Below, piece after piece: positions 16,161 through 51,995 of a DNA stretch of 64,000 bases (its first letter is position 1; each line of letters starts with the position of its first letter). Position numbers and translations under genes: made by a program. The DNA comes from Deltaproteobacteria bacterium (GTDB taxonomy: Bacteria > JAGRBM01 > JAHCIT01): NCBI GenBank assembly GCA_026129095.1, contig JAHCIT010000001.1, positions 186,245 through 250,244 on the forward strand, in the 5' to 3' direction. The notes under the pieces were generated by a model that did no database searches, was not told where the DNA came from, and worked only from the letters and a program-made list of their open reading frames with translations.

Positions 16161-16169
16161 CAAGCTGCC

Positions 16170-23709: not shown

Positions 23710-23728
23710 GCCCAAGCATTGGATATTG

Positions 23729-23749
23729 CGGTGACATGATATGTCACCG
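23729..23749. promoter_or_regulatory. Island palindrome, site 1
   Basis: A perfect 21-bp palindrome with TGACA at 23732 and TGTCA at 23742, spacer TGATA. Its centre is 30 nt upstream of the start of the minus-strand gene at 23709. It belongs to the eleven-member set described in the findings. Confidence 0.75.
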
Positions 23750-23765
23750 GAGCAACGTGATGAGG

Positions 23766-26351
23766 TCATGCATAGTCAGCAGCCAATAAGCCTTCGAACA
23801 AGCTCTTTGCGCCCGACGCTTTCATTACCGCCTGACGAACATCGGCACGGGTCAGATCCAGCACACGCAACTTGCCGCCAACTTCAGCAACCGATTCGAT
23901 ACGACGGTAAAAGCTTGAGTGTTCCTGTGCATAGGCAGCCAGCCCCTGAAGCTTGGGCAGCGCATCAGCCAGATGCAGTCCATGCGGATCGACTAAATCC
24001 GCAACCACCTTGCCATCCTGCTCAGCAAAGAAAATGAAATCCGGGCGGACGATCTTGAACTGTTCATCTTCGACGTAGGCGATCCCCAGCGAGGATTGCC
24101 CCGGCTGCTGCGGATTGCGATACCAGAAACGGAAACCGGCGCGATTGGACTCGGTCTCAACAACGGTGCGCTCCCAATCATTCAACTCGGCTGGGTATTT
24201 GCCGTCCTTGTCGGCAAGCAGATGGCGCTGCCAGGTTGGGAGCGTAATTATCTGGTCGTTTTCACGTGCCTTGGTGGCCTCATAGCGAGATTCAGGCTTG
24301 GCCAAATCCACATTCTGCGGCTCGGTGCTCATCTCCACAATCTGCCGGTAGGATTCCTTGCGGTCGTCCGAAAGCTTCTTGATCTGCGGCCCATAAGTCC
24401 TCAGCCATGCCTTTGCAAGCTTGTCGGCTTCGGCATCGAAGTATGGTTGAATCTCGGTAACCAAACCTAAACCCGCGACAGTGACACGAGCCTCGGTGAT
24501 GGCCTCAAGAAACTCTTCTGGATCATCGTCCACGTTAGCGATCTGTTTCGCCAAATGCTCGACGTAGGTACGTGCGATGTCCGGACTGAAAATTCGCGCC
24601 GCGCGCCTGAAGGCATCGTCAACCACTGCGACATCTGCATCCTCCCAGAATTCGTCGAAAGTTTTCGCCTTGCCTTTCATATCAGTGACGACCGTCTCGC
24701 CATCCACTGTCAACACTGACTTGCGCTTGGCCTCGATCTTTTCTTTCTGAGTCTCCTGAAATGCGTCTAGAGCCTTGTGCATCACCCCATGGGCCAGCTT
24801 GCCCGCATCAGCAAGGATACCGTCAGATGCCAACTCGTGAGCCAATGCCGTCAAGCGTTTTGCCGGTTTCGCGCCACGCTGCGGGCGGGTTTGCGATGGC
24901 AAGGATTCGAAAGCCTCCCAAACCACTGCTGACGCGTCCGGGTGGGGCTTCACCTCCACATATTCGATGAGAATGCGACCGGAAGGCGGGGCCGAATCAT
25001 CACCCTTCATCAAGACATCGACAACTTCTTCGACCGCTTTGCGGTTGAATTTCGGCAGCAAACAATCCACTGCATTCAGTCGGTCGTTGCCTGGAATGCG
25101 GCGAGCCAACGGCGAGCGCACCATCCGCCCCAGCAATTGGGTGATGTGGGTCCGATCGCTGGCGGCGCGGAAGGACACCATCACTTCAGCGCGAGGGCAG
25201 TCCCAACCAGTGCTGATGGCATCCTTGGCGATCAACACACGCACCCAGATGGAGTCCTGAACGCGTTGCGGCTCGATGTAAGGTACGTCGCGAGTTCCGA
25301 ATCGTTGCGTGCTGTGTTCGCCAAAAACGTGCGCCACGCTAGCAGCCGGCAATTCGGGATAGCGCTCGAAGATGGTTTCCAGTGCCCGCCCAATCTCGTT
25401 CGGGTCAGGTGTATTGGGAACTTGCAACACCATCAAAGGCACAACGACGCGCGCTTCTTCTTGCTGCTTGGCGTATTCGTACCAGGCGACAGTTGATTCC
25501 TTCAGCTTATCCGTAGCACGCCGCACCAGTACGGTATCGAAATCACCGGTCTCTGTGGGAATGTCCAGCAATATGGTGTCTTTGATAAGGCCGGATTCCT
25601 GCACTTTCACCGCATCCACTACCACGTTTGGCAGCTTGCTGTGCTTACCCGCGGACTCAATGGCCTTGTTGAAACGCTCCACCGTCGCCGAAATTCCCCA
25701 TATCACCGGTATGCCGGTCACACTGCCAGAGCCGTTGATCAGGCGCTGTACGATGGTGTTTTTTTCCTTAATCGTCGCATTGCCCATGCCACGGTGCGCT
25801 TCGTCCAGCACCAGGTACAAGGTCAAATCCGGATCGTCGATGGTGTTCTGAATCGTGTCCCATATGGTGTAGGCACGAAGGTCGGGGCGGATCGCCGGTA
25901 GCAATGCCCCCGCCCTGGCCTCCAATTCCTCAAGATCATGGCCGCGTACCAGCAGACTATTCTTGCTTAACTTCTGGGTGTTGAGAAAATAGATTTTACC
26001 GGCCTCAAATCTAGGGCGATTAAAGGTATTTTCCACCACAACCATATCGGTGTATTTGATGCGGTCGCTGGCTTCCATCAGGCGGAAGCGGGTCTGCTCG
26101 TTCAATGACGGATCATCGCTGAACCAGATCACCACAGCGCTGGGGTCGGCCTCAAAATCGAATTCGTCGTCGCCGTAAAACAGCGCCTCGAACGCAGCGG
26201 CCGCCATCACGGTTTTACCCGCACCAGTGACCGCAGTCAGAGAAAATGCCGTCTTATCGGACTCGCCATGCCATCGGCTGCGTGCTTTTCGAAGATGATT
26301 GAGGACATCGCGCACGGCGTCGCGCTGATAATCCTTGAGGGTAAACTTCAT
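23766..26351 (-). CDS. Type III restriction enzyme Res-like DEAD/DEAH helicase
   Basis: An 861-residue protein. Its SF2 helicase core has Walker A TAVTGAGKTVMA (about residues 38-49), Walker B DEAH in LVLDEAHRGMG, and a helicase C-terminal half containing STGWDCPRAEVMVSFR and QLLGRMVRSP. This matches the translocase/restriction subunit of type III-like systems. The C-terminal PD-(D/E)xK region is plausibly around residues 760-800 (IVRPDFIFFAEQDGKVVADLVDPHG), but the lysine position is unclear. It starts 3 nt after the methyltransferase stop. The pair would cut foreign DNA lacking the host methyl mark. Confidence 0.88.
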   Translation of the reverse strand: MKFTLKDYQRDAVRDVLNHLRKARSRWHGESDKTAFSLTAVTGAGKTVMAAAAFEALFYGDDEFDFEADPSAVVIWFSDDPSLNEQTRFRLMEASDRIKYTDMVVVENTFNRPRFEAGKIYFLNTQKLSKNSLLVRGHDLEELEARAGALLPAIRPDLRAYTIWDTIQNTIDDPDLTLYLVLDEAHRGMGNATIKEKNTIVQRLINGSGSVTGIPVIWGISATVERFNKAIESAGKHSKLPNVVVDAVKVQESGLIKDTILLDIPTETGDFDTVLVRRATDKLKESTVAWYEYAKQQEEARVVVPLMVLQVPNTPDPNEIGRALETIFERYPELPAASVAHVFGEHSTQRFGTRDVPYIEPQRVQDSIWVRVLIAKDAISTGWDCPRAEVMVSFRAASDRTHITQLLGRMVRSPLARRIPGNDRLNAVDCLLPKFNRKAVEEVVDVLMKGDDSAPPSGRILIEYVEVKPHPDASAVVWEAFESLPSQTRPQRGAKPAKRLTALAHELASDGILADAGKLAHGVMHKALDAFQETQKEKIEAKRKSVLTVDGETVVTDMKGKAKTFDEFWEDADVAVVDDAFRRAARIFSPDIARTYVEHLAKQIANVDDDPEEFLEAITEARVTVAGLGLVTEIQPYFDAEADKLAKAWLRTYGPQIKKLSDDRKESYRQIVEMSTEPQNVDLAKPESRYEATKARENDQIITLPTWQRHLLADKDGKYPAELNDWERTVVETESNRAGFRFWYRNPQQPGQSSLGIAYVEDEQFKIVRPDFIFFAEQDGKVVADLVDPHGLHLADALPKLQGLAAYAQEHSSFYRRIESVAEVGGKLRVLDLTRADVRQAVMKASGAKSLFEGLLAADYA

Positions 26352-31262: not shown

Positions 31263-33197
31263 TCAGTCAATTCGGCTCTGATGGGACTTCAGTGTATTGA
31301 GACTGCTACCGATCCACAACAACCGCTCGGCCAGCTCAAGAGCGTCCACGGGCCAGAATTCGCATGGACGCGGACGATGAATCCGGCTCAGTCCATCGAT
31401 CGGCCTGCAAGTGAGGATCCGGTCACGCCACTGTGCGGGGACGGCCTCGCGGCCGTAGACCGCCCCAAGCAGCGCGCCGCAGATCGCGGCGTTGGTGTCG
31501 GTGTCGCCGCCCCGGCGGACGGTGTCGATCACACCCGCCTCGAACGACGGCGCGTGCAATAACTGGTAAAAGGCATTCTGCAGCGCGATCAGCACCCAGC
31601 CCTGCTGGTGCAGAAAGTCGTCCGGTGGTCCCTCGCTCGCGGCCTGGAGAGTGCGAATGATCTCCGGCGACAACTCCTGCTCAGCGGCGTACTGCCCGCA
31701 CCGGTCGAACACGACGTTCGCCGCACTGCCCCGGATCGCCTCGCGGATCGCAAAGGCAAAGAGGCGGTTCGCGTGGACACAGACCGGATTCGGATGGGTT
31801 AATTCCGCGTCTTCGCCCGCCCACTTGAGCGGAGCATCGGTATCTGCCGCTGCCGCGACAACTCCCAGGGGACTGATCCGCATGAGCCCGCCATTCGCCT
31901 GCGAATGAGGGGTGGCCGACTGGAGCGCCTCCGCCTCAGGGTCGCCGCCGTCACGGAGCGCCCGTGCGGCCAGCGCCAGAGCCTTCGCCGTGGTATTACC
32001 GATATCGAACGGCTTGGTATTGTACCAGTGAGCATATGCACGCGCCGCTGTTGCCCGCGAATATGTCCCGCTCTCCACAATCGAGCGCGCCAGCATCAGC
32101 GCCATTTCTGAATCGTCCGTCGGCTGTCCCGCGAGCGTCACCCAGGTTCCGCCTTCAAGCAGCTCCCGGGGACCGTCCGGGTACAACTTCGTGATGCTTT
32201 CCGGCCCCTTGAACTCGACGAGACTTCCGAGCGCATCGCCGGCGAACTGACCAAGAAGGCAACCCTGAGCGCGGGCGAGCTGTACGGGAGCAGTCTCCCG
32301 GTACACTTTCCCTTTTTCAGGCCGGATCAGGGGATACACGTCGTTCAGTGCCGATGGTTTGGCAAATACCCGCTCCCACGGTTTGCCGGCCAGTTTCTGA
32401 AGGTATTTCTCCCCGCCGCCGAAACACCGGCCTCCGCAACTGCTGCCGCCTGTGACGGAATAGGTAACAGGCTTGCCGCCAGCATTGATCAGCTCGCCGC
32501 CTGCGGCACGAATAAGCGCGTGCCCCGCCGCGTAGTCCCATCCGACCGGCCCGTTGAGCGAAACCGCCGCGTCGCCCTCTCCGGCCGCAACCAGCGCCAG
32601 CCGGTAGGCGATTCCGGGGACTGTCCGGAACCGCGCCGGAGCGGCAACTTCCGCATTGGCCATCGAGTTCTTGTCGGCGTCCTGGGAAACAAGAATGGTC
32701 GACTCCCGGCTGAGTTCATCCGCCCACTGGCGGATCACCGGCTGGCCGTTCCGGCGCAGCGGCCCGAAGCCTTCCGCCCAGGCGAACAGGTCTCCCTGAT
32801 CGTCCGGGGCACAGAATGCGTAGATGACGCCTAGCACCGGCTCGCCTGCCCGGAGCAGCGCGATCGATACCGCCGAGCCCCGGTGGTTCTTCAGAAAGGC
32901 GCTCGTGCCGTCGTTCGGGTCCACCAGCCAGCAGTGCTGCTTGTCGTCTGCGGGCGTTTTCTTTGCACCAAGCTCCTCGCCGGTGTAGCCGAACCCGTTA
33001 TCAGCGTAATCGGAGAACAGGATGCCGTAGATACACTTCTCGGCCTCCTTATCGATCTCGGCGTGACCGCCGGAACCTCGCGGACCGCCCTTCCGGTAGA
33101 ACTCGTTTCTGAGCATCTCCCCCGAACAGACCGCCGCCTTCACCGCCAGCGGAAGCAGGTGCTCGTAGGACCGAAGATAGGTTTCCAGACCAGGCAT
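31263..33197 (-). CDS. Inositol-monophosphatase-like / ADP-ribosylglycohydrolase fusion
   Basis: A 644-residue two-enzyme fusion. Residues 1 to about 290 form an IMPase/CysQ-type phosphatase with GEEL (73-76), DPNDGT (93-98) and WDYAAG (220-225), the metal-binding set. Residues about 305-640 form an ADP-ribosylglycohydrolase with GCLLGQFAGDALG (312-324), PTDDSE (359-364) and GGDTDTN (563-569). The first half would dephosphorylate a nucleotide or sugar phosphate; the second removes ADP-ribose from proteins or nucleic acids. The start at 33197 has GGGAGGG upstream; a longer frame would run through the operator. Two resolvase-like genes follow in the operon. Confidence 0.88.
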   Translation of the reverse strand: MPGLETYLRSYEHLLPLAVKAAVCSGEMLRNEFYRKGGPRGSGGHAEIDKEAEKCIYGILFSDYADNGFGYTGEELGAKKTPADDKQHCWLVDPNDGTSAFLKNHRGSAVSIALLRAGEPVLGVIYAFCAPDDQGDLFAWAEGFGPLRRNGQPVIRQWADELSRESTILVSQDADKNSMANAEVAAPARFRTVPGIAYRLALVAAGEGDAAVSLNGPVGWDYAAGHALIRAAGGELINAGGKPVTYSVTGGSSCGGRCFGGGEKYLQKLAGKPWERVFAKPSALNDVYPLIRPEKGKVYRETAPVQLARAQGCLLGQFAGDALGSLVEFKGPESITKLYPDGPRELLEGGTWVTLAGQPTDDSEMALMLARSIVESGTYSRATAARAYAHWYNTKPFDIGNTTAKALALAARALRDGGDPEAEALQSATPHSQANGGLMRISPLGVVAAAADTDAPLKWAGEDAELTHPNPVCVHANRLFAFAIREAIRGSAANVVFDRCGQYAAEQELSPEIIRTLQAASEGPPDDFLHQQGWVLIALQNAFYQLLHAPSFEAGVIDTVRRGGDTDTNAAICGALLGAVYGREAVPAQWRDRILTCRPIDGLSRIHRPRPCEFWPVDALELAERLLWIGSSLNTLKSHQSRID

Positions 33198-33232
33198 AGA
33201 CCCTCCCTGAATAGAGGGATCTTGGCATGGGC

Positions 33233-33253
33233 CTGTGACAGGTAGTGTCACAG
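33233..33253. promoter_or_regulatory. Island palindrome, site 2
   Basis: A perfect-armed palindrome CTGTGACA-GGTAG-TGTCACAG. Its centre is 46 nt upstream of the minus-strand fusion gene (33197). A CAAGAT hexamer at 33219-33224 is in -10 position. It is nearly identical to site 10 at 51877. Confidence 0.75.
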
Positions 33254-33307: not shown

Positions 33308-33324
33308 GTGACACTGTCTGTCAC
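33308..33324. promoter_or_regulatory. Island palindrome, site 3
   Basis: GTGACA-CTGTC-TGTCAC, 69 nt upstream of the plus-strand gene at 33385. TATCGT at 33335-33340 is in -10 position. Together with site 2 it gives each of the two divergent genes its own copy. Confidence 0.75.
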
Positions 33325-33384
33325 AGAGCGCCGCTATCGTTGTCCAGCCGACCAGAGAGATCTGTCGGCCGGAGTGTGCAGGCG

Positions 33385-34539
33385 ATGGAAACGGTTCTCC
33401 AGGGCGGCAACCTGTATTTCAAAACCGGCAGGGAACTCATCTCTTTCGGTGCCTGGCCGCATATCCGGTTCATGCGGAAAAACCTGTCCGGGCGCTGGGA
33501 GAAGCTGGCCGATAGCGACGCCGACCAGCACCGTCCATTGGAGAACCAGTGGCAGTTCATGGCATGGCTCGAAACCTTTCCGGCCGATGTGCGGGACATC
33601 GTAGTGGATTCACCTTTTGATCCGTTCAGGTTCCTACCCGTGCTGTGTGCTTCAGGAACAGCCGGACTGGATCTTTACCGGACCGGTGGCAGTTTCTGGA
33701 TCTTCGCCATTGCCCATTCGGACGAACTTGGCACTCCGGTCGGGTCCTCGGAATACTCCGGTCTCGTCCTGGCGAAACGGACCCGGATCGCCGAACGCCT
33801 TGGATTTCCTCCGACGAAACAGATGGCGAAAATTGCCGCAAAAATCGTAATTCAGACTTTCCCAGGGCCTTGGTTTCTGCCCCAGGCAAGGTCCGTGCTC
33901 AGGAATCCGGCATCTCTTGCGCTTTTGTCGCACGTGGAAACGGTTAGCTATTCATCGCTGCACGTATTGGGTTGCGGTATTCCACAACATTATCTGACCA
34001 GTACCCTGCTGGATGAAATCGCGAGGGACCATGAGAGCGGGTATGCGTCGAACCGCCTGCTCCTTTTGTACCAGACCTGGTCGAGAGTGCTTCCGGAGAC
34101 TCCATTCCCGGTAATCCGTTCGATGCATCAGGCAGAGACACTTGCGCAAAGGGTCGGAGTCTCCGCCATTGATGACAACCGGGAATTCCCGGAATCCCCG
34201 ATCTCCGTACCGCAGGGGATAAGCTATCTGGATTGCGCAAATGCGCTGCGTAGGGAGGGCCATCATCGGAAAAACTGTGTGGCCATGTATGTCGAAGAAG
34301 CCGTTTTCGGCCAGTCTTATTTTTTCAGCCTGCGACAACCAGAGCCCGCGACGCTCAGGATTGCCAAAGATCGAGGCACAAACTGCTGGAAAATCGTCGA
34401 GATCAAGGCCCCCTGCAACCAGCCGGTTAAGCCGGAGACCGTCGAATACGTCACGACGTGGCTGGATGAAGCCAGTCGAGAAATTACATCCGGTCAGTCA
34501 GGAAACAGTAGCGGGACTTTCAGATCCCACACTTCGTAG
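33385..34539 (+). CDS. PcfJ-like protein
   Basis: A 384-residue protein. The C-terminal third (GHHRKNCVAMYVEEAVFGQSYFFSLRQPEPATLRI) resembles the PcfJ-like domain, where a conserved H/N-C-V patch precedes a short beta-sheet. The N-terminal two thirds are helical and unassigned. PcfJ proteins are common on plasmids and integrative elements, with no settled function. I start at ATG 33385 with GGAG upstream; an upstream GTG at 33340 overlaps the promoter. Its 3' end overlaps a small convergent gene by 46 nt. It carries its own copy of the island palindrome. Confidence 0.65.
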   Translation: METVLQGGNLYFKTGRELISFGAWPHIRFMRKNLSGRWEKLADSDADQHRPLENQWQFMAWLETFPADVRDIVVDSPFDPFRFLPVLCASGTAGLDLYRTGGSFWIFAIAHSDELGTPVGSSEYSGLVLAKRTRIAERLGFPPTKQMAKIAAKIVIQTFPGPWFLPQARSVLRNPASLALLSHVETVSYSSLHVLGCGIPQHYLTSTLLDEIARDHESGYASNRLLLLYQTWSRVLPETPFPVIRSMHQAETLAQRVGVSAIDDNREFPESPISVPQGISYLDCANALRREGHHRKNCVAMYVEEAVFGQSYFFSLRQPEPATLRIAKDRGTNCWKIVEIKAPCNQPVKPETVEYVTTWLDEASREITSGQSGNSSGTFRSHTS

Positions 34540-34712: not shown

Positions 34713-34745
34713 GCCGTCTTCCTTTCATAAAAAGTATGGCAGATG

Positions 34746-34768
34746 CCGGTGTCAGGCTGTGTCACCGG
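34746..34768. promoter_or_regulatory. Island palindrome, site 4 (variant)
   Basis: CCGGTGTCA-GGCTG-TGTCACCGG. The outer arms pair perfectly, but the left inner half is TGTCA instead of TGACA. It is centred 45 nt upstream of the gene at 34712, with CATACT at 34733-34738 in -10 position. Confidence 0.65.
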
Positions 34769-35233: not shown

Positions 35234-36253
35234 CTATGAAATCAAGGGTGCCGTGTCACCGGTTCTGGACTGTATCTCCGGCCAGCGGTCTTTCACCCCA
35301 AGCTCCATCAGCCACGTCTTGACCACCGAGAGGGCGTCATCCGGGCCGTCCACGTCAGCAGCGATCTGGTAGAACTCCCGCCACCAGAGGCCGCAATGCC
35401 GATAATGCGCCTGCACCACTCCGCACTTGTCCCGGAACCCGAACAGGCTGAACGAATCAAAAAGCCTGACGAGAGCGGCACGGCCCGCCCGTCTTCGTGC
35501 ATCTCCGGAAAGCGACACACCACCGGTCAGATCCGACTTGGCTGCTTCAATTATAGGCTTCAGCTTATCCGTCGGTTGATGCAACCGATCGCCTTCCATA
35601 TGGATCCGGCCGAGCCTGAGGCACAGATCGAGCAATGCCCGGGAATACGATTCCTGTATCAGGATGGAGGGCCACTGCATCGCTTCAAACATGCCCTGCG
35701 TCGGATCGGCGTATTTGAAGATCAACCAGTCCCGGTTTCCTTCAGCCGAATTCACCTGGTCGAGGAAGGCGTCTATGGGATCGCCTTCCAGAGGGCTGGC
35801 AATGTATGAATAGGTGTTGGGATCCCAACTGAATCGCACAACTGCCCCGTCAGCAGCGATATGCAGCGCGCCCGTCAAGGATTCAACCCGCCGCACATCG
35901 GCCCATATTTCTGGATACCACTTCTGCGACGCAAGGGTCCGGGCGAACGGTTCAGCCGCCTGCCGAACGAAAAGCACTACTGCCCTTGTACGCCCTCCTC
36001 GATTGCACGGCCATCCAGGACACTCCGAATAGGGCGGGATGCCGTTGCACCTGAAGTAACCCACCGGCGGAGTATTCTTGCGCATCCATAAATCGTCTGC
36101 GACCCAGCGTTCGAATGAATCACGATCTGCCGACACTTTGACATAGGGAACGACTATCCCGGTATCGATACCCTTGGCCTCATCCAAAAGTCTCTGGATG
36201 CTGGCTCGAAGAACGGTCTCTTTTGCCGCTTCGGGAACGTCGTCGAATATCAC
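35234..36253 (-). CDS. Hypothetical protein
   Basis: A 339-residue protein without a family I can name. It contains a cysteine-containing segment (YFRCNGIPPYSECPGWPCNRGGRTRAVVLFV, about residues 67-97), an aromatic FSWDPNTYSYIASPLEG region and a helical C-terminus. The clustered cysteines could bind metal. It heads a two-gene operon with the 148-residue protein. A perfect copy of the island palindrome lies about 108 nt upstream (36351-36371) with a CATAAT hexamer in -10 position. Confidence 0.65.
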   Translation of the reverse strand: MIFDDVPEAAKETVLRASIQRLLDEAKGIDTGIVVPYVKVSADRDSFERWVADDLWMRKNTPPVGYFRCNGIPPYSECPGWPCNRGGRTRAVVLFVRQAAEPFARTLASQKWYPEIWADVRRVESLTGALHIAADGAVVRFSWDPNTYSYIASPLEGDPIDAFLDQVNSAEGNRDWLIFKYADPTQGMFEAMQWPSILIQESYSRALLDLCLRLGRIHMEGDRLHQPTDKLKPIIEAAKSDLTGGVSLSGDARRRAGRAALVRLFDSFSLFGFRDKCGVVQAHYRHCGLWWREFYQIAADVDGPDDALSVVKTWLMELGVKDRWPEIQSRTGDTAPLIS

Positions 36254-36350
36254 GGTGCAACTCCTTTTAGCTCCTGGAATTTCTCTCGCGCCCCAGGTGC
36301 AATCCGGAAGAACAAATCCCCGGCGCGTATGTGATTATTATGGACTGCCA

Positions 36351-36371
36351 CGGTGACAGGACGTGTCACCG
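36351..36371. promoter_or_regulatory. Island palindrome, site 5
   Basis: Perfect arms CGGTGACA-GGACG-TGTCACCG. CATAAT on the minus strand at 36337-36342 is in -10 position, oriented toward the operon starting at 36253. Confidence 0.75.
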
Positions 36372-36379
36372 TATTGACC

Positions 36380-36658
36380 TTATCTGCCCTGTTCTTCCGC
36401 AAACCGTTCCAGATAACGGACCAGATCCTCGTCACGGATGTGAAAAGGATCCGTACCCGCCGGAATTGCAGCCGAAACAATCTGAAGCATCCGCCCCTCC
36501 GGCCATTTCTCGCGGATGTTGAGCAGCAGTTCGGCCACGCGGATCACCTGCTGGGGATCACGGGCCTGCTGCTTCCAGCCGCCGGAGGATTTCATCTGCT
36601 CCAAAACACGCCGTCCTGCTTCGATCTGCCGTCTGGTTTCTTCGCCAATAGTCATCAC
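36380..36658 (-). CDS. Small hypothetical protein
   Basis: A 92-residue, mostly helical protein (MMTIGEETRRQIEAGRRVLEQMK...). GAGGAGA 7 nt before the ATG is a good ribosome-binding site. Its 5' end overlaps the 3' end of the lipoprotein gene by 101 nt in another frame. Both genes look real, and the overlap would couple their translation. Function unknown. Confidence 0.55.
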   Translation of the reverse strand: MMTIGEETRRQIEAGRRVLEQMKSSGGWKQQARDPQQVIRVAELLLNIREKWPEGRMLQIVSAAIPAGTDPFHIRDEDLVRYLERFAEEQGR

Positions 36659-36875
36659 GAGTCTCCTCTATGCACTGCTCTGCTGCCTCCACTTCCACCG
36701 GTCCATAAATCCTACCGTCGTAGGTCTCGCAGAAGCAGACCCGGCTGTTTCCCTCGCCGCGCTCGAAGCCGTAGTCGTCTCCGCAAGCCCTGTCGCAGGG
36801 GCCTTCGTCGCCGCAGGATAGGCCTGTCACTGCCAAAACCACCGCGATACCCCTCCACAACTTTTCTGGAATCAT
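36558..36875 (-). CDS. Small predicted lipoprotein
   Basis: A 105-residue protein beginning MIPEKLWRGIAVVLAVTGLSCGDEG: a basic start, a hydrophobic core and a lipobox (GLSC) with the lipidation cysteine at about residue 21. The mature part is acidic and has six further cysteines (CDRAC, CFC, C, C), suggesting disulfides. It would be anchored in the envelope. It is divergent from the WYL regulator gene and shares its palindrome (36914-36932), with TATCGT at 36900-36905 near -10 position. An envelope protein is unusual among the nucleic-acid enzymes of this island. Confidence 0.55.
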   Translation of the reverse strand: MIPEKLWRGIAVVLAVTGLSCGDEGPCDRACGDDYGFERGEGNSRVCFCETYDGRIYGPVEVEAAEQCIEETRDDYWRRNQTADRSRTACFGADEILRRLEAAGP

Positions 36876-36913
36876 GCGGCCCCCCCCCTGCACCTGATAA
36901 CGATACCAATAAT

Positions 36914-36932
36914 GGTGACAGGATATGTCACC
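36914..36932. promoter_or_regulatory. Island palindrome, site 6 (WYL regulator promoter)
   Basis: GGTGACA-GGATA-TGTCACC with perfect arms, between the divergent lipoprotein and WYL-regulator genes. It is centred 53 nt upstream of the regulator start and 48 nt from the lipoprotein start. Its place in the regulator's own promoter suggests autoregulation. The regulator side has TTGCCC (36941) and TAGATT (36964), 17 bp apart, as a possible promoter. Confidence 0.75.
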
Positions 36933-36975
36933 GGTTTTCGTTGCCCGTTTTGGTGAAACCGCATAGATTTCTTCT

Positions 36976-37995
36976 ATGACAAGAAGGAAAGCAGTCCCCC
37001 GGAAGGCATCCCGCGAGGACTATTTCGAGCGGATCTGGAACCTGCTCCGGCAGATGGACGAGGCGGGACTGAACGGCGCAACCGTCGAGGACCTCGCCGG
37101 ACATATGGCGGCGGTCGATGAGCGGACTGTGCGCCGCTATGCCGAGGATTGCGTCAAGATCGGCATCGTCGAAATCGTCCCGCCAAAAGACAAGCGGGAG
37201 CGCCGCCGTTACCGGATCAATGACGATACCAAACGGATGTGGCGGCTCAAGTTCGATCCCGTGGAAGTCGGATCGATCATCCTGGGCGAAACGGTCCTGC
37301 GCCGGTCAGGGCACGACCTGTATGCAAACGCGCTGAAGCGAGTCCGAAGCCGCATCGAGGAAACGGCAGGCCCCCTGCTCAAGAAGCAGTTTGACGGGCT
37401 CGACCGCACACTGGTTCTCACCCAGCCGACGCGCCTCGAAAATCTTCTCGTGCTGGAAAACCTCCACCGGGCACTGGCCGAGAGCCGCATCGCAGTCATT
37501 CACTACGAGAAACCGGGGGCGAAAGTCCGCCCGCACGAAGTGAAGCCCGTGGCCCTCATCGCCGGGCCGAACATGGCGGGCGGGCGGCTCTACCTGCTCG
37601 CCGATCATGTCGCCAAGGGATACCGGCTGGAGTTCGCCCTGCCGCGTATCCGGGATGTTGTCGTAACCGGAACCGCCTTTACGCCGCCCGATCCGGCATC
37701 GCTGCAGAAGGAACTCAGCGCTTCGTTCGGCGTGTTTGTCGGCGGGAAGCCGGAGAAAGTCCGCATCCGGTTCACCGGCAGCGCCGCCGCCTACGCCCAG
37801 GAACACCAGTGGCACCCGTCGCAGAAATTCCGCAAGATCAATGATACCGAGGTGGAACTCGTCATGACCTGCACGGTCACCGATCAGCTTGTCGGCTGGG
37901 TGCTGTCGTTCGGTAGCTCGGCGAAGGTGGTGGGGCCGAGGCGGCTGGAAGTGATGGTGAGGAATGAGGCGGGGAAAGTCGTCTCTGGTTGGTAA
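36976..37995 (+). CDS. WYL-domain transcriptional regulator
   Basis: A 339-residue regulator. An N-terminal DeoR-like winged helix (about 15-80: ERIWNLLRQMDEAGLNGATVEDLAGHMAAVDERTVRRYAEDCVKIGIVE) is followed by a WYL sensor domain (about 165-230: IAVIHYEKPG...HEVKPVALIAG...RLYLLADH...FALPRI). A C-terminal extension of the WCX type (KVRIRFTGSAAAYAQEHQWHPSQKF) binds ligands or DNA ends in relatives. WYL proteins BrxR and CapW repress BREX and CBASS operons and are released by nucleic-acid signals. With a palindrome in its own promoter, it is the best candidate controller of the eleven island sites. Confidence 0.9.
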   Translation: MTRRKAVPRKASREDYFERIWNLLRQMDEAGLNGATVEDLAGHMAAVDERTVRRYAEDCVKIGIVEIVPPKDKRERRRYRINDDTKRMWRLKFDPVEVGSIILGETVLRRSGHDLYANALKRVRSRIEETAGPLLKKQFDGLDRTLVLTQPTRLENLLVLENLHRALAESRIAVIHYEKPGAKVRPHEVKPVALIAGPNMAGGRLYLLADHVAKGYRLEFALPRIRDVVVTGTAFTPPDPASLQKELSASFGVFVGGKPEKVRIRFTGSAAAYAQEHQWHPSQKFRKINDTEVELVMTCTVTDQLVGWVLSFGSSAKVVGPRRLEVMVRNEAGKVVSGW

Positions 37996-39823: not shown

Positions 39824-41308
39824 TCACCCCTCCATCAACTTTTCCCGCAGCTTCACCATCGCCAGGGTGTCCTGACCGCAGTAATCCCGCAACGCTTTCT
39901 CCAGCCGCTTCTTTTCCTTCGGATCGTCTACTGAGAGCATGGTCATGAAGGCGACGCCCGCCTCCATTCCGCCCGCTACATCCATCCCTTCGTAGGTCAT
40001 CTCGGGCACCAGCGCGGGCAGCACAGACTTGATCGAGAACGATCCGTGGAACTCGGGATGGTAGATATGCTCGCGCAGGACCGGGAGCATGTCCCACAGC
40101 CGGTCCACCAGTTTCAGCAGTGGTTTCTCCAGCTTCGGCAGGTCCTTGGCAAGCTGGTTGATGACCCGGGCTTCAAAAGCGGAATAGGTGCAGATGACGC
40201 CTGTCCTTTCGACCGATTCGATCAGCTGCACCGCCAGTTCTTCGCGCGGGTCGTCACCGGTCGTCGCCAGAAACATCCGGTGGTCGTGCCCTTTCCTTCC
40301 CTTCTCCACATGGAGCGACCACTGGAACGGCACCGAGTCATAGGGGCGCGTTCCGGCGTAGCGCGGGATTGCCGGCATGAAGGTCTCGAAGTCGAGGTAG
40401 TGGACCGGGCCCGGCAGGTCCTTAAGCACCTTGCCCAGCTTGCCGGATTTCCAGGTTTTCCCCGACCGGACCACCGAAACGGCCCGGCGCTGCAGGGGGC
40501 TCAGGGGAAAATCGTCCGGCACCTCATGAATCTCCGCAACGCCCATCGCCCGGAGCTGTTCCTTTTTCGCTGCGTGAAGCGACGGGATGTGTTCCACCGG
40601 ATGATCGGGATATATCATCCCCTTCGTGCAGTGGGCGTAGAAGGGGCACGGATAGGGAACCGTGCACTGATCACCCGGCCCGATCTTCGGAGGTTTCTTC
40701 TTCGCCAGCATCGCGTAAAGTCCGGCGACTTTGGCAGCGATCTCTTTCTGACGGCCTATGGCCAGACTAGTCCGGTCGTGCAGCGTGAAAAGGTTCTTGA
40801 GATCGAGCTTCCTGCCGTCGAATACGTAGTCGCGGCTCAGGAGCAGGACTCCGGCCGATTCGACCTTGAGGCCCGCGCCCTTCAGCACCCAGTACTGAAG
40901 CGCCACGTCTTCCTCGAACTGTTCTTTCACCTTCGTACTCGATTTCACCTCGATCAGGTTCCAGCGGTCCTTGCCAACGCGCTCGATGATGTCCGCCCGG
41001 ACCAGCACGTTCTCGTGCATGAAGGCCGCTTCGTAAATGACGCTAACCTTCGGATCTTTCAGTAGCTTCGCCGTCTGCTTGAGCGCCTCATCCGTCTGCG
41101 TGTGATCGGCCTCGACCAGCACTCCCCCCGGATACCTCTGCTGCGCCAGGACGCCCACCTCGTGGCCGGTATCGAACACCGCCTGCTGGACCTCGTCGGC
41201 CTCCTCCGCCAGGTCAGGCTCATAGACGTGGTACCAGAGCCGGAGCGGGCATTGGAGCCCGTACATGTACCGGGATTTGGAGAGGCGGGGGGCCTGGGCT
41301 TTACTCAT
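39824..41308 (-). CDS. DUF2779 nuclease with Cas4-like Fe-S domain
   Basis: A 494-residue protein. The N-terminal half is a PD-(D/E)xK nuclease of the Cas4/RecB type: D106, E120 and K122 (RADIIERVGKDRWNLIEVK). C20 together with C215, C221 and C227 is positioned to hold a 4Fe-4S cluster. The C-terminal half is the DUF2779 RNase H-like domain with HYLDFETF (D306, E308) and a final YCGQDTLAM. It probably degrades DNA or RNA ends. It heads an operon with the DnaB-like gene. A variant palindrome lies 33 nt upstream (41333-41349), and GAGGAA precedes the ATG. Confidence 0.85.
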   Translation of the reverse strand: MSKAQAPRLSKSRYMYGLQCPLRLWYHVYEPDLAEEADEVQQAVFDTGHEVGVLAQQRYPGGVLVEADHTQTDEALKQTAKLLKDPKVSVIYEAAFMHENVLVRADIIERVGKDRWNLIEVKSSTKVKEQFEEDVALQYWVLKGAGLKVESAGVLLLSRDYVFDGRKLDLKNLFTLHDRTSLAIGRQKEIAAKVAGLYAMLAKKKPPKIGPGDQCTVPYPCPFYAHCTKGMIYPDHPVEHIPSLHAAKKEQLRAMGVAEIHEVPDDFPLSPLQRRAVSVVRSGKTWKSGKLGKVLKDLPGPVHYLDFETFMPAIPRYAGTRPYDSVPFQWSLHVEKGRKGHDHRMFLATTGDDPREELAVQLIESVERTGVICTYSAFEARVINQLAKDLPKLEKPLLKLVDRLWDMLPVLREHIYHPEFHGSFSIKSVLPALVPEMTYEGMDVAGGMEAGVAFMTMLSVDDPKEKKRLEKALRDYCGQDTLAMVKLREKLMEG

Positions 41309-41332
41309 GGTTCCTCACCATACAATTTCGTT

Positions 41333-41349
41333 GTGTCAGGACATGACAC
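41333..41349. promoter_or_regulatory. Island palindrome, site 7 (variant)
   Basis: GTGTCA-GGACA-TGACAC: still a perfect palindrome with the same 5-nt spacer, but the inner A/T position is swapped in both arms. It is centred 33 nt upstream of the DUF2779 gene, with TATGGT on the minus strand at 41317-41322. Confidence 0.65.
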
Positions 41350-43512: not shown

Positions 43513-44008
43513 TGGCCCATGCCTCCGGGATGTAATCCCCCGTTGCTCCACGCTGGTCGAGGAAGTCTCGTATGCGCGGCATTTCATGCGTCAGCAGTTC
43601 GTCTCGGCCGAGCCGCGATTCAACGATTTCTGCATGGCGGAATTCGCTATAGACCCATCCCTGATGACGGGCTTCACCTTCCCCAGACAGCAGCACGAGA
43701 CAACCGGACCAGAGGACTTCCGAACCCGTGAATGACTCGGTTTCGGCCGCTGGAGGAACCGGATCGACGAGTATCTCCAGGCAACCACACCGGCTGGCGA
43801 TCGCATGAGCCCAGAATGCCGCATCACCGATGCCCAGTGCCGTGTGAATGCTCAGATCACCGGCCAGTGCAGCAAACCAGTGTTCCAGCTCATCCCGGCG
43901 TTCCGGCGGAGTCTCATGCCGGACAGACCAATTCTCAAAAACCCGGTTGATGACGTCCGTTAGCGGACGGACCTCTATATCGTTTCCGATTACGACTGTT
44001 GTCCTCAT
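43505..44008 (-). CDS. Hypothetical protein in the AAA+ operon
   Basis: A 167-residue protein, MRTTVVIGNDIEVRPLTDVINRVFENW. It has a central LWSGCLVLLSGEGEARHQGWVYSEFRHAEIVESRLG and no domain I can name. Its start overlaps the AAA+ stop (ATGA) and its stop overlaps the nucleotidyltransferase start. It is thus a core member of a four-gene coupled module. Confidence 0.6.
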   Translation of the reverse strand: MRTTVVIGNDIEVRPLTDVINRVFENWSVRHETPPERRDELEHWFAALAGDLSIHTALGIGDAAFWAHAIASRCGCLEILVDPVPPAAETESFTGSEVLWSGCLVLLSGEGEARHQGWVYSEFRHAEIVESRLGRDELLTHEMPRIRDFLDQRGATGDYIPEAWAND

Positions 44009-46074
44009 ACGGACCCCACTGGCTGCATGAATCCGACCCGGCGCTCCCGGATCTTCGCGTTTGCTTCATCCCAGAGGAGCCCGCAGAGGATTTCCGGATT
44101 CCCCAGCTGGCCCAGGATCCCGGCTTTCCGGTGAACCAGCGCGAAGTCCCCCGGCGTCAGGTTCGGGGGCAGAACGCTTCCGTCCGGCGGTTCCGTTCCA
44201 AAGTAGAGGCGGAACGCGGCGCGGCACTGCTCCGGCGACATGAACTTCAGGGTCACTTTGAACGTGAACCGGCGGAGCGAAGCAGCATCCAGGCGGTCGG
44301 AGAAGTTCGTCGTGCAGGCGAACGGCCAGTCGTGGGACTCCATCCAGGTGAGCATCTCGTTCACCTGCGTCACTTCCCAGGACCTCTGGGCGAGGTTCCG
44401 GTCCTGCAGAAGGGAATCGGCCTCATCGAAGACAAGGAACGCTTCCTCGTCGCGGGCATGCCGGAAGGCGGCCGCGATGTTTTTCTCGGACCCGCCGACC
44501 CACATGCTGAGCAGGTCAGAAGCGCGCTTCTGGATCACCTCGATTCCCATCTCGCGGGCGAGGTGGCGCACGAAGGCCGTCTTTCCGGTACCCGGCGGAC
44601 CTGACAGGCAAAGCGATACCCGGCGGGAGTTCTCCAGCGAACAGATATGACCTGACAGGTTCACCAGATCGGCATCGGCGTTGACCAGTGACAGATCGTA
44701 CCGGTCCGGACGTTTTTCCGGTTTTTTCTCGGGTGCCTCTCCCCGCATCAGCACGGATACGCTCCTCACAGCCTGCCGCACCTGTTCGGTCTGGCCACCC
44801 GCGAGCCGGGCCGCCCGGACTGCGCTGGCGGCCAGTGCAGGGGCTTCGCAGAAATCCCGGGCCAGCTTGCGGACCTCGTCCCCCGGAACCTCGACCGACT
44901 GGCGCTCCAGGAGCCGCTGCCACACCCCCTCCCGCACCTTGCGGGGCGGAACCTTCATCTCCAGCGCATAGGTCATCCGGCGCAGCAGGGCTGGATCGAA
45001 GCAATCCGTATCGTTGGTCGTCCAGATGACCGGGACCGGATTGTTCTCCAGCAACCGGTTCAGGAATACCTTTGAAAGCGAACTGTCCTCCCGGTCCCGG
45101 GACCGGGAAAGCAGGTCTTCCATCTCGTCGAACAGGAGCATCGAATTTTCAGCCCCGGCGAGGAGTGCACTCGCGATCTGGATGCCGGCGATCCGCTCGC
45201 TGGTCTTGGGCATCGATCCCTCGTCATCGCTTTCCCCGATGGAGTAGATCGACAGGCCGGCCTTCGCCGCGAGCACCTTGGCGAATTCCGTCTTGCCGGT
45301 CCCCGGAGGCCCGTAGAGCAGAATATTAATACCCCGTGCCTTTTCCCTCATGGCCCCGGAGAGAAGAGGCAGAAGGAAATCCCGGTCGGTGGCGACATGA
45401 CCGAAATCCTCCCACCCCAGTTCCGGCAGCTGGGGTTTGCCCGCGACCGCGCGTCGGAAGTCATCGACTCCATGGTTCGGCGGCATCAGTCCGCCGAGAA
45501 CCCGGTTCGGCACCTTGAGGCTCGAATCAAACTGCCCCTTGAAGGTCAGGTGAACCACCACCAGCCCCAGCCGGTACAGACGGGCCGAAGGCTTCATCCG
45601 GACCCGCACGGCCTCAGGATCGGCGGCAAGCAGCTTGGCGATCATGCCGTCCAGGCTCAGCACCCGGGTCGGCATGATCTCGTCGCACAGACGCTCGAAC
45701 TGATGGCAGGTCGCGTAACGGACGGCGGCTTCGAAAATGCCCTGCTCCAGGGGATCAAGGCCGAACTCCCGCGCGATGGCGTCGATATTCTGCTGAAAGA
45801 CACCGGGCGCTTCCGCACGGTTCTCCGCAAAGAACCGGTCCAGCACCTCATGCACGTCCTGAAGCCCCTTCTCCGGCTGGTTCGGTCTGAAGCGCCTGCG
45901 GCGCGAAGACCCATGATCTTCACCGCCAGGGGCCAGAAACGAGAGCCCGACCTCGGACCCTTCACTTTCCACCCAGCTCACCAGCTTCTGCACAATCGCG
46001 GAACGCGCTCCCAAGGACCGGGAGAGATTCCGCACGTACTGGATCACTGCCCAGTGTTCGTAGTTGATTTCCAT
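44005..46074 (-). CDS. Double AAA+ ATPase
   Basis: A 689-residue protein. An unassigned helical N-terminus (1 to about 215) is followed by two AAA+ modules. The first has Walker A YGPPGTGKTEF (about 254-264), Walker B LLFDEMEDLL and the arginine-finger segment DPALLRRMTYALEM. The second has SGPPGTGKTAF (about 491-501), FLVFDEADSLL and AASLRRFTFKVTL. Both look ATPase-competent. This SpoVK/Cdc48-like layout suggests a hexameric remodeller of protein or nucleoprotein complexes. It heads an operon with four tightly coupled small genes. Start at 46074 (MEINYEH); site 8 of the palindrome lies 136 nt upstream. Confidence 0.88.
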   Translation of the reverse strand: MEINYEHWAVIQYVRNLSRSLGARSAIVQKLVSWVESEGSEVGLSFLAPGGEDHGSSRRRRFRPNQPEKGLQDVHEVLDRFFAENRAEAPGVFQQNIDAIAREFGLDPLEQGIFEAAVRYATCHQFERLCDEIMPTRVLSLDGMIAKLLAADPEAVRVRMKPSARLYRLGLVVVHLTFKGQFDSSLKVPNRVLGGLMPPNHGVDDFRRAVAGKPQLPELGWEDFGHVATDRDFLLPLLSGAMREKARGINILLYGPPGTGKTEFAKVLAAKAGLSIYSIGESDDEGSMPKTSERIAGIQIASALLAGAENSMLLFDEMEDLLSRSRDREDSSLSKVFLNRLLENNPVPVIWTTNDTDCFDPALLRRMTYALEMKVPPRKVREGVWQRLLERQSVEVPGDEVRKLARDFCEAPALAASAVRAARLAGGQTEQVRQAVRSVSVLMRGEAPEKKPEKRPDRYDLSLVNADADLVNLSGHICSLENSRRVSLCLSGPPGTGKTAFVRHLAREMGIEVIQKRASDLLSMWVGGSEKNIAAAFRHARDEEAFLVFDEADSLLQDRNLAQRSWEVTQVNEMLTWMESHDWPFACTTNFSDRLDAASLRRFTFKVTLKFMSPEQCRAAFRLYFGTEPPDGSVLPPNLTPGDFALVHRKAGILGQLGNPEILCGLLWDEANAKIRERRVGFMQPVGSV

Positions 46075-46200
46075 ATGCCCTCCTTCAGGCAATGCGTGGC
46101 CAACGGCCTCAATCGGCCGGTCAGAACGCCAGTCCGCCAGGCATTCAGGTCACGTTATGAAGGGAAGCGGTGAACTCATGGGCATGAATATAACGGCCGC

Positions 46201-46220
46201 CGTGACAGGACATGTCAGCG
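46201..46220. promoter_or_regulatory. Island palindrome, site 8
   Basis: CGTGACA-GGACA-TGTCAGCG. The inner arms are perfect and the last outer base on the right deviates. TATATT on the minus strand at 46187-46192 is in -10 position for the AAA+ operon. The rest of the 46075-46298 gap shows nothing else. Confidence 0.7.
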
Positions 46221-46298: not shown

Positions 46299-46748
46299 TC
46301 AGATTAGATCGTGACGTTTCATGCTCCCGTCAGAAGCGAGCTGGAAATAGAATGCACCAGTCGGATTATTTCGTGAGACTTCCGCTGGATCGAGCCGGTA
46401 TTCTGCGTATGCCTTCGATAGCACCCCTGCAATCTCGTCTGACCTCCGTTCGATTTCGCCCACACCGTCAAACCCGGTGAGGTGAACGATCCCGAACTCA
46501 TCGACTGCGGCTTCGTCATAAAGCTTCTTTACGCGGAGCTCATCTTCCGTAATGAGGGTCCGCTTTGTCAGGAAACTGCTCAGCCGATTCCACTCCTGTG
46601 TATCTTCAAATCGGAGCTGGATGACCCGGAAGTTGTACGTCTTAAGCGGAATCTGAAGGCAGGCCAGAGACACGTCTAGAATGAAGATGCCGCGGGAGCC
46701 CGGCCTAGGTTCACGCGCTATGGTCGGCTTACTATTCAAGTGAATCAT
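46299..46748 (-). CDS. Hypothetical protein
   Basis: A 149-residue mixed alpha/beta protein containing FRVIQLRFEDTQEWNRLSSFLTKRTLITEDELRVKKLYDE. I recognise no family. It is divergent from the NERD helicase gene and shares its palindrome (46824-46840). Base composition is intermediate. It is possibly transcribed alone. Confidence 0.55.
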   Translation of the reverse strand: MIHLNSKPTIAREPRPGSRGIFILDVSLACLQIPLKTYNFRVIQLRFEDTQEWNRLSSFLTKRTLITEDELRVKKLYDEAAVDEFGIVHLTGFDGVGEIERRSDEIAGVLSKAYAEYRLDPAEVSRNNPTGAFYFQLASDGSMKRHDLI

Positions 46749-46823
46749 TAATTCGTGATTTGCTACAGGTATCAGGATAACGACGGAACGGAATGGTCAT
46801 GGGACCTAGCATGCCATGCAGTC

Positions 46824-46840
46824 GTGACAGGACATGTCAC
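46824..46840. promoter_or_regulatory. Island palindrome, site 9
   Basis: GTGACA-GGACA-TGTCAC between the divergent genes at 46748 (minus) and 46896 (plus). CATGCT (46808-46813, minus strand) is a weak -10 candidate. On the plus side, TTCGAT (46857) and TACAAT (46880) are 17 bp apart and would place transcription close to the NERD helicase ATG. Confidence 0.75.
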
Positions 46841-46895: not shown

Positions 46896-48569
46896 ATGGC
46901 ACGTATCTTCCCAACGCCCCTGCCGGACAGCGTCCGGAAGGAGCCTCGCCTCAACGCGGAGGTGAAGGTCTACGACCGGCTGGCGAAACTGCCGGGTCCC
47001 TACACCGTCTATTACTCGGTGCGCTGGCCGTCGAAGAACCCCAAGGGCCGGACCAGCGACGCGGAGGCGGATTTCGTCGTCGTCCATCCGGCGAAGGGTG
47101 TTCTCGTGATCGAAGTGAAGGGCGGCGGGGTGGCGCACGACGGCCCGACCGGGAAGTGGTTCAGCGTGGACCGCGACGGCCGGCGCCATGAGATCGATGA
47201 TCCTGTCAAAAAGGCGATGATCCTCAAGAACGATCTGGTGAAGCGGCTGAAGGAGCAGCCGGGCTGGCGGAACAGTGGGATGATCTGTCATGCGGTCGCG
47301 TTTCCCGACCTGCGGGACCGCAATACTCAGCTCGCACCCGACCTGCCCACCCCGATCGCCCTCTTCGAGCCCGACCTGATCTACCTGGAGGAAAAGCTGG
47401 AGTCGGCTTTCAGCTTCTGGTCGAACCAGTCCGCGCACCGGTCGGAGATGCTTGAGTCCGATCTGGCCGTCGTCGAAAGATTCTTCGCGCCGACCTATGA
47501 GCTGAGGAAACCGCTCGGCGTTCTCCTCTCTGACACCGATACGGAGATTTTCCGGCTCACGAACCAGCAGTTCGCCGTCCTCCGGTGCAACCGCCGCAAC
47601 GCCCGGGCCTCGGTCGCTGGAGGCGCCGGTACCGGAAAGACGCTGCTGGCCATCGAGAAGGCCCGCGAGTTCGCCCGGGATGGCATGAGCACGCTGTTCG
47701 TCTGCTTCAACAAGCCGCTCGCGGACTACGTGAAAACCGCGCTGGCCGGGACTGACGGCGTTACCGTCAGCACGTTCCACGGCCTCTGCCATGACTATGC
47801 GGAACGGGCGGGGCTCCCGGTGCTGCCGCTTGGCACCAAAGAGGTTCCGGCGGACTATTTCCGCAAGCAGCTCCCGGCGTGGATGAGCGAGGCTCTAGGG
47901 AAACGGCCGGACGACCGATTCAACGCGGTTGTCGTGGACGAGGCGCAGGACATTGAAGAGGACTGGTGGCCACTCATCCTCGGGACGCTCTTTGAACCGG
48001 ACGAACAACCGCTCTGGGTTTTCTACGATCCCAACCAGCGGTTCTACCGGCAGGGCTCGTCGTTCCCCGAGTTTGCGACCGAACTCACCTTGGACGAAAA
48101 CCTCCGCAACACGAAACCGATCCAGCAATTCGCGGCCCGGTTCTGCAGCAACGAAGAGTTTATTCCCGGCGGCCCCGATGGCCCGCCGGTCGAGCAGTTG
48201 AAACTCCCGTCCAACCTGAAGCTGGCCGACGCGCTCGAAACGGTCCTCGACCGGCTGATCCACGAAGACCTCATCCCGGCCGAGGAGATCGCCATCCTGA
48301 CCGGAGTGAGCCTCAAGAAAAGCGCACTCAACGGGATCAAGAAGATCGGGAACTGGGAGTTGACGCCATCAGACCAGCCGGTGCGCGGCAAGGTCGTCCT
48401 GGAAACCATTCACCGGTTCAAGGGGCTCGAACGCCAAGTGGTTATCCTCGTCGAAACCGAAAGCCTTGCCACCGCAACCGGCGACGAGAAGAAAGACCAG
48501 GATCACCGGAACCTGATGTATGTGGGGTGTACGAGAGCGAGAGGACTACTTATTTGCAATTCTGTTTAA
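46896..48569 (+). CDS. NERD-domain / UvrD-like superfamily 1 helicase
   Basis: A 557-residue protein. The N-terminal NERD nuclease-related domain is intact: EADF (57-60) and VIEVKGGG (71-78) supply the E...E-x-K active site. The SF1 helicase follows with Walker A AGGAGTGKT (241-249), Walker B VVVDEAQDIEEDWW, motif V-like TIHRFKGLERQVVILV and motif VI MYVGCTRARG. It would unwind and nick DNA. NERD helicases are recurrent in defence islands. The ATG at 46896 has no Shine-Dalgarno sequence. Its 3' end overlaps the convergent PLD gene by 4 nt. Confidence 0.9.
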   Translation: MARIFPTPLPDSVRKEPRLNAEVKVYDRLAKLPGPYTVYYSVRWPSKNPKGRTSDAEADFVVVHPAKGVLVIEVKGGGVAHDGPTGKWFSVDRDGRRHEIDDPVKKAMILKNDLVKRLKEQPGWRNSGMICHAVAFPDLRDRNTQLAPDLPTPIALFEPDLIYLEEKLESAFSFWSNQSAHRSEMLESDLAVVERFFAPTYELRKPLGVLLSDTDTEIFRLTNQQFAVLRCNRRNARASVAGGAGTGKTLLAIEKAREFARDGMSTLFVCFNKPLADYVKTALAGTDGVTVSTFHGLCHDYAERAGLPVLPLGTKEVPADYFRKQLPAWMSEALGKRPDDRFNAVVVDEAQDIEEDWWPLILGTLFEPDEQPLWVFYDPNQRFYRQGSSFPEFATELTLDENLRNTKPIQQFAARFCSNEEFIPGGPDGPPVEQLKLPSNLKLADALETVLDRLIHEDLIPAEEIAILTGVSLKKSALNGIKKIGNWELTPSDQPVRGKVVLETIHRFKGLERQVVILVETESLATATGDEKKDQDHRNLMYVGCTRARGLLICNSV

Positions 48570-50388: not shown

Positions 50389-50751
50389 CTAGGTGAACGA
50401 ATTTAACGCTCGCCTCACTCCGTCCATTTCCTCGCCCGGCTTCGTCAACCCCATCTTCTCCGCGCAGGTCATACAGAACGCCGCAAGCTGCTCCGCGTGG
50501 CGGACGCTAACGATGTGGTCCGACGGCTCCATAGGCGGCTCACCGAGGGATTTCCTCTTTTCGTTGATTTGATTCTGTCCCTCGTAATGCTCTGCGGTCA
50601 AATCTTTGGCCGAAATCGGGTCCATCGATTCGAAAGACAGGGTAACACACGCGTATACTTGGCTTTCCCGGATATCCGCTTTGCACCGGGCACACTCCAG
50701 GACCACCGGTTTCACAGGATTGTCAGGATTAATGCTTCTCAGGCGGACCAT
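50389..50751 (-). CDS. Small protein with paired cysteine motifs
   Basis: A 120-residue protein. CARC (about residues 20-23) and CMTC (about residues 95-98) could bind one zinc ion. Its start overlaps the end of the ArdC-like gene by 13 nt, so both are in one operon under site 10. Function unknown; a nucleic-acid or protein adaptor role would fit a zinc-ribbon. Confidence 0.6.
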   Translation of the reverse strand: MVRLRSINPDNPVKPVVLECARCKADIRESQVYACVTLSFESMDPISAKDLTAEHYEGQNQINEKRKSLGEPPMEPSDHIVSVRHAEQLAAFCMTCAEKMGLTKPGEEMDGVRRALNSFT

Positions 50752-51827: not shown

Positions 51828-51876
51828 GCCGCACCTCCCGAAAATCAGCCATTGACAGGTTCACTATAAGGGGTGC

Positions 51877-51897
51877 CTGTGACAGGTAGTGTCATAG
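51877..51897. promoter_or_regulatory. Island palindrome, site 10
   Basis: CTGTGACA-GGTAG-TGTCATAG, nearly identical to site 2 including flanking bases. TATAGT (minus strand, 51863-51868) is in -10 position for the ArdC-like operon. Confidence 0.75.
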
Positions 51898-51950
51898 TTC
51901 TGGAGGGGGCTTAGGAGCCATTTGGAGGGGTTTTAACGATAGCGGGACCG

Positions 51951-51967: not shown

Positions 51968-51995
51968 TTGGGGCGGCTATATTTGGCTCAAGAAC

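Follow-up and report, generated by a model that had tools for sequence, protein, structure and literature searches.

The WYL regulator gene and the palindromes of the island

The window analysed here is a 64,000-nucleotide stretch of a deltaproteobacterial genome that carries an island of defence genes. Within the island, a gene for a WYL-type transcription regulator (P0001) stands back to back with a small gene, with a palindrome between the two:

36976 to 37995, plus strand: WYL-WCX transcription regulator, 339 aa, with Pfam WYL and WCX domains
36915 to 36931, no strand assigned: perfect palindrome between the WYL gene and the divergent minus-strand gene
36900 to 36905, minus strand: -10-like TATCGT at the conserved distance from this palindrome, directed toward the divergent gene and not the WYL gene
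36558 to 36875, minus strand: divergent small gene encoding a lipoprotein-like product (MIPEKLWRGIAVVLAVTGLSCGDEG...) without a Pfam family; predicted first target of the palindrome

Pfam matches to P0001 cover WYL (1.6e-7) and WCX (8e-13). No HTH is recognized by Pfam, and the wHTH is assigned by alignment only: the N-terminal part can be aligned with the wHTH of DriD, and the recognition-helix motif R-T-x-x-R is conserved. The three parts named in the initial annotation are thus all present, in the wHTH, WYL, and WCX architecture of PafBC/DriD-type WYL activators. A profile search returned no further WYL protein from the window, in agreement with the proposal that this is the only WYL-type regulator of the island. 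Used as a query in a protein search of the genome contigs, P0001 retrieved no relatives, and a structure prediction of the protein alone (mean pLDDT 41) was too poor for use.

The palindrome is a perfect copy of GTGACA-N5-TGTCAC, GTGACAGGATATGTCAC, and the ATG of the WYL gene follows 44 bp further on. The window holds 11 sites of this kind (six perfect, three with one mismatch, and two with two mismatches), all inside 23731 to 51967 (23.7–52.0 kb), so that both the 11 sites and the 28 kb originally reported are correct. The other sites, with their -10-like elements and the genes toward which they point, are as follows:

23731 to 23747, minus strand: perfect palindrome before a small gene (23287 to 23769, minus strand) without a Pfam family; weak -10-like AATGCT
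33235 to 33251, minus strand: perfect palindrome, -10-like CAAGAT (33219 to 33224), toward a minus-strand run encoding an ADP-ribosylglycohydrolase/IMPase fusion, two Endonuc_Holl proteins, a DUF4357 protein, and type III Mod and Res
33308 to 33324, plus strand: perfect palindrome, -10 TATCGT (33335 to 33340), toward a PcfJ-like gene (ORF 33340 to 34539)
34749 to 34765, minus strand: variant GTGACA-N5-TGACAC, -10-like CATACT (34733 to 34738), toward a small minus-strand gene
36353 to 36369, minus strand: perfect palindrome, -10-like CATAAT (36337 to 36342), toward the gene at 35234 to 36253
41333 to 41349, minus strand: symmetric variant GTGTCA-N5-TGACAC, -10 TATGGT (41317 to 41322), toward a DUF2779/Cas4-like nuclease gene (39824 to 41308) and a DnaB-like helicase gene
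46202 to 46218, minus strand: one-mismatch palindrome, -10 TATATT (46187 to 46192), toward a tandem AAA ATPase gene (44005 to 46092)
46824 to 46840, minus strand: perfect palindrome, -10-like CATGCT (46808 to 46813), upstream of a NERD-UvrD helicase gene (46896 to 48569, plus strand)
51879 to 51895, minus strand: one-mismatch palindrome, -10 TATAGT (51863 to 51868), toward an ArdC-like paralogue (50739 to 51827) and then a PLD/NgoFVII-like nuclease gene
51951 to 51967, plus strand: two-mismatch palindrome, -10 TATATT (51978 to 51983), toward a HAD hydrolase gene (51996 to 52868)

In the stretch 46299 to 46840, the -10-like element of the 46824 box points away from the NERD-UvrD gene, at a very short minus-strand ORF, and for the plus-strand helicase gene there is a TACAAT some 40 bp away from the box. 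In the stretch 31263 to 33251, behind the palindrome at 33235, one protein fuses inositol-monophosphatase and ADP-ribosylglycohydrolase domains in a single chain within the defence island.

Identical arms separated by every other spacer from 0 to 12 gave zero perfect and zero one-mismatch matches in the window; with both strands counted, 26 matches were observed against a shuffle mean of 4, and spacers and flanks vary from site to site. Chance palindromes are ruled out by the spacing control, the shuffles, and a reversed control. A dispersed repeat, or chance, as the origin of the sites is a reading to which we give almost no credence: two ArdC-like paralogues do have a duplicated promoter in common, but spacers and flanks vary among the sites, the spacing control is empty, the reversed control yields 0, and the phase of the -10 is fixed. 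The association of a WYL gene with a palindrome is thus confirmed by the domains, the perfect site, the window counts, and the empty spacing control. Its description as a palindrome in the regulator's own promoter fares less well. The palindrome is in place, but its -10 faces the neighbour, and none was seen at the expected place on the WYL-gene side; the box more likely drives the divergent gene, and "own promoter" may be literally wrong.

Promoter geometry and known WYL systems

Measured outward from the palindrome, TANNNT begins at +10/+11 on 16 of the 52 site-strands (about 0.5 expected) and is rare at other offsets. Relaxed to YANNNT, the element is found at 10/11 on at least one strand of 20 of the 26 sites of two genomes (random positions: 5.4%), and six of the 26 have no clear -10 at the expected place. 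At normal -35 spacing the best hexamer match across the 26 sites is no better than background. From the fixed -10 distance and the lack of a -35 it follows that the palindrome is centred on the -35 region, in promoters that have no -35 element. The site ends 9–10 bp before the -10, neither overlapping nor following it, and in the majority class 12 nt separate TGTC from TA. A GAC-N7-GTC-type site at -35, held at a fixed distance from the -10 of a promoter without a consensus -35, is the arrangement of PafBC/DriD-type promoters. The layout is thus activator geometry and not the repressor geometry of BrxR and CapW, and it points to activation.

PafBC of Mycobacterium is a WYL heterodimer that acts by sigma adaptation at promoters lacking a -35 (PMC5656591, PMC11804915), which carry tTGTCRgtg-8nt-TannnT, that is, TGTC-12nt-TA (PMC5656591). 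The island resembles this system in its WYL-WCX protein, in TGTC-12nt-TAnnnT without a -35, and in the best PDB profile match; it differs in that PafBC is a heterodimer reading an asymmetric half-site before DNA repair genes, whereas a full palindrome precedes mostly defence genes here. DriD of Caulobacter is an ssDNA-activated homodimer with sites of the form ATACGAC-N7-GTCGTAT; they overlap the -35, keep a constant distance to the -10, and, at driD itself, activate the divergent operon (PMC12340889). Common to both are GAC-N7-GTC centred on -35 and the divergent-operon layout, and DriD is also the best single-sequence PDB match of P0001. The flanks differ, however (ATACGAC/GTCGTAT against GTGAC/GTCAC here), the DriD regulon is a small one of repair and checkpoint genes, and P0001 retains the arginines of the sensor loop only in part. 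SiwR of Mycobacterium smegmatis is likewise a WYL activator homodimer, with a 19-bp palindrome upstream of the -10 and an adjacent dinB-like target operon (PMC10693628), but its one known target operon is not a defence operon.

WYL repressors of defence genes, BrxR and CapW, are also known (PMC9122601, PMC9122588), and the initial annotation had taken them as its model. Both act on defence genes via palindromes, as proposed here, but they are local-operon repressors, distant in sequence, with sites on or after the -10: CapW sites overlap it, and the repeats of BrxR come after the predicted -10. As a single sequence P0001 matched neither BrxR nor CapW in the PDB, and its profile returned PafBC at 1.6e-33 and DriD at 2.6e-29, against 1e-5 for CapW and 5e-6 for BrxR. 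Judged by sequence, the protein is much closer to PafBC/DriD than to BrxR/CapW and does not appear to belong to the latter family. That a WYL protein represses many defence operons in the manner of BrxR and CapW and is released by a phage signal is therefore unlikely in our view. The existence of such repressors speaks for it, and a dimer covering the -35 region could also keep polymerase out; against it stand the position of the site 9–10 bp upstream of the -10, the distance in sequence, and the lack of a consensus -35, which should leave the promoters weak without help. The position of the site and the closeness to PafBC/DriD speak against the repressor analogy.

We consider it likely, with appreciable room for doubt, that a WYL activator runs this regulon through bipartite, activator-dependent promoters in which the palindrome is the operator. 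The promoter code would read GTGACA-N5-TGTCAC, a gap of 9–10 bp, and a -10 element YAnnnT. A WYL-WCX dimer of the PafBC/DriD mechanistic kind would sit on the palindrome in place of the missing -35, and the bound dimer would replace the -35 contact so that housekeeping RNA polymerase could start there (sigma adaptation). Without an activated WYL protein, box promoters would be weak or silent; the activating signal would probably be ssDNA. By analogy the trigger may be ssDNA or DNA damage, with phage replication or restriction damage as a possible source. P0001 would be one of two WYL proteins able in principle to act as the activator, and its box would fire the divergent gene, a layout that recurs at many other WYL genes. 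We infer binding, activation, sigma adaptation, the trigger, and the acting WYL protein from sequence comparison.

Sites beyond the island and across phyla

The whole genome holds 11 perfect sites, five of them outside the island on five other contigs, and all five precede defence or anti-restriction genes:

L006: perfect site before a type III-like restriction locus with a HATPase gene
L007: perfect site before a type III Mod/Res pair
L008: perfect site before an ArdC-N-like gene, 58.5% identical to the island gene at 50739 to 51827
L009: perfect site before a type I hsdM-hsdS locus
L010: perfect site before a Cas12b gene

The two ArdC-like paralogues (regions 50739 to 51967 in the window and L008:5135-6325; 58.5% identity) each have a divergent promoter region with two boxes 72 bp apart, duplicated along with the gene. 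The Cas12b ORF (L010:6342-10823, on C17 of the same genome) is 1493 aa long, and its family match begins at residue 45, suggesting a protein of about 1450 aa, well above the 1000–1130 positions of the PADLOC Cas12b models; a Cas4-Cas1 fusion is encoded upstream.

Allowing W at position 4 (GTGWCA-N5-TGWCAC) raises the count to 14 exact sites by adding one site upstream of rmuC and two within the island. The comparison set contained a single other genome of this phylum, the sister genome G001, which has eight exact sites of this form; the reversed control gave 0 in both genomes. The other 143 genomes have 0–3 each, except one with 12 copies of a single identical repeat. The box lies directly upstream of rmuC here (L011:2917), and in the sister genome a small gene stands between box and rmuC (L054:2216); the presence of rmuC boxes in both genomes suggests that a repair core of the regulon is older than the defence island. 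One-mismatch sites elsewhere in the genome, including one within an Asp/Glu racemase gene (L012) but excluding that at rmuC, were treated as chance. The regulon would comprise the island together with type I/III R-M, Cas12b, and ArdC-like genes elsewhere on the chromosome, plus rmuC.

The link between motif and WYL genes extends to other phyla. Around 48 WYL loci sampled from diverse genomes (a few of them overlapping), GTGAC-Nk-GTCAC occurs with k=7 in five genomes, and other spacings are nearly empty. In most of the five an AT-rich -10-like hexamer follows 10 bp on, with exact TANNNT in G032, G355, and G064, the phylum of G032 being represented by one genome. In the GTDB collection the bipartite motif matched at least 118 loci, at least 15 with a WYL gene; about one would be expected by a rough estimate from WYL density (115 of 386 genomes with a strong match), used in place of a control scan. 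Among the matches listed, 11 of 118 have a WYL gene within 200 bp, and nine of the 11 are divergent, as in the window. The bipartite promoter precedes cas9 next to a WYL gene (L201) and cas6 in G032 (L069); at L083 a variant box, TGGAC-N7-GTCCA-N10-TAGGAT, adjoins a WYL gene, with cas6 further along. Other kinds of gene follow the box in the Bacillota (VOC-like and, by eye, DinB-like), indicating that the box is a feature of WYL genes and not of defence as such. By sequence, then, a tie between the palindrome and WYL genes across phyla is supported.

Non-WYL control would leave the WYL gene as a mere member of the regulon of some other transcription factor reading the palindrome. Autoregulation is no proof of binding, but WYL genes of many phyla have the motif with this spacing next to them, the lexA promoter is without a box, and the sites revealed no other regulator in common, so we regard this as very improbable. 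lexA is present (C2:488639), and its locus and promoter contain no site within two mismatches, which rules out an SOS/LexA box. RptR, one regulator for R-M loci across bacteria, offers a likeness in scope but is a 9-kDa non-WYL repressor of TAGCTA sites (PMC12255303), and RptR-like control is ruled out by the different site. Gac/Rsm of Pseudomonas likewise coordinates defence genome-wide (PMC11888443) but works through the Gac/Rsm pathway and not through DNA boxes read by a WYL protein. Control of many scattered defence operons by one WYL-type regulator, as first proposed, is thus supported by the comparative link between motif and WYL genes, but "switch of the island" falls short, because defence genes on five other contigs also have sites before them.

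Candidate WYL proteins and a possible immune switch

A second WYL gene lies elsewhere in this genome (C1:489227-490105; L052:5180-6253). The only WYL gene detected in the sister genome lies about 30 bp downstream of a box and encodes the orthologue of this second protein (43% identity; grouped at 100/97); it is not orthologous to P0001 (27% identity). Thus, the sister genome keeps the palindromes without an orthologue of P0001, which counts against the island protein and nearly amounts to the refuting condition set in the initial annotation, palindromes retained where the regulator family is lost; yet it has a WYL protein of the family with a site in front. Both orthologues of the second protein have the recognition helix RRTVYRD. 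In a MAFFT alignment, the R-x2-R-x2-R sensor loop of DriD reads R,A,R in the second WYL protein and L,A,R in P0001, in a register made uncertain by an Arg one residue off. PafBC and SiwR need arginine pairs in the sensor-loop region for ssDNA binding or activation. P0001 lacks the full set of ssDNA-binding arginines typical of PafBC/DriD-type proteins; ssDNA sensing by P0001 is therefore doubtful, the nucleic-acid trigger initially suggested is less certain for it, and we do not claim it as a DriD-like ssDNA sensor. In a WYL tree, P0001 is a long branch of unreliable placement and boxes are scattered, not confined to one clade, so that having a box is no distinguishing mark of P0001.

It is accordingly a serious possibility, though one we rate below even, that the true regulator is the second, core-genome WYL protein, with P0001 as a diverged paralogue acting as its modulator, competitor, or partner. 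The orthologue in the sister genome with its adjacent box, the shared helix, and the better-kept sensor loop favour such an assignment, and the PafBC heterodimer provides a precedent for partnering; however, the 11-kb locus of the second WYL gene in its own genome contains no box, a perfect box adjoins the island WYL gene, and boxes elsewhere often adjoin a WYL gene. Orthology, the long branch, and the sensor-loop residues are the reasons for judging "a WYL activator" and "P0001" separately, and that P0001 is the switch instead of, or more than, the second protein has in our estimate a little under an even chance. Of the master-switch proposal, the part that names a WYL-family regulator is supported; P0001 itself is unproven, given the second gene.

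Defence genes are usually viewed as regulated operon by operon, mostly by local repressors. If true, one promoter code for type I/III R-M, Cas12b, and nuclease/helicase operons would amount to a coordinated, activator-run immune regulon. The shared WYL-type promoter signal at an activator position suggests that immune genes may switch on together, perhaps by DNA damage. That a WYL sigma-adaptation switch has been recruited as a chromosome-wide immune switch, turning on R-M, Cas12b, and other systems at ssDNA or DNA damage, is a tentative extension that we hold to be somewhat less than probable. The device is already known from PafBC, DriD, and SiwR; the novelty lies in the regulon, in which one such box is common to scattered R-M, Cas12b, and other defence genes of a single chromosome, and searches of an open-access library returned no account of a defence regulon with WYL boxes. 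Because the spacing matches that of LexA-independent DNA-damage promoters, a connection of immunity to genome damage can be tested directly, and the bipartite box GTGAC-N7-GTCAC-N10-TAnnnT provides a simple motif for WYL targets where only the regulator is annotated.

Two other features of the window lie apart from these sites. At 16082 to 16161, immediately ahead of the ORF at 16170, three copies of an 18-bp palindrome, AGTAAAGGATCCTTTACT, recur at intervals of exactly 31 bp and form a repeat or regulatory element of another kind. A tmRNA gene at 56675 to 57040 lies a few kb to the right of the island; tmRNA genes are a common site of island insertion.
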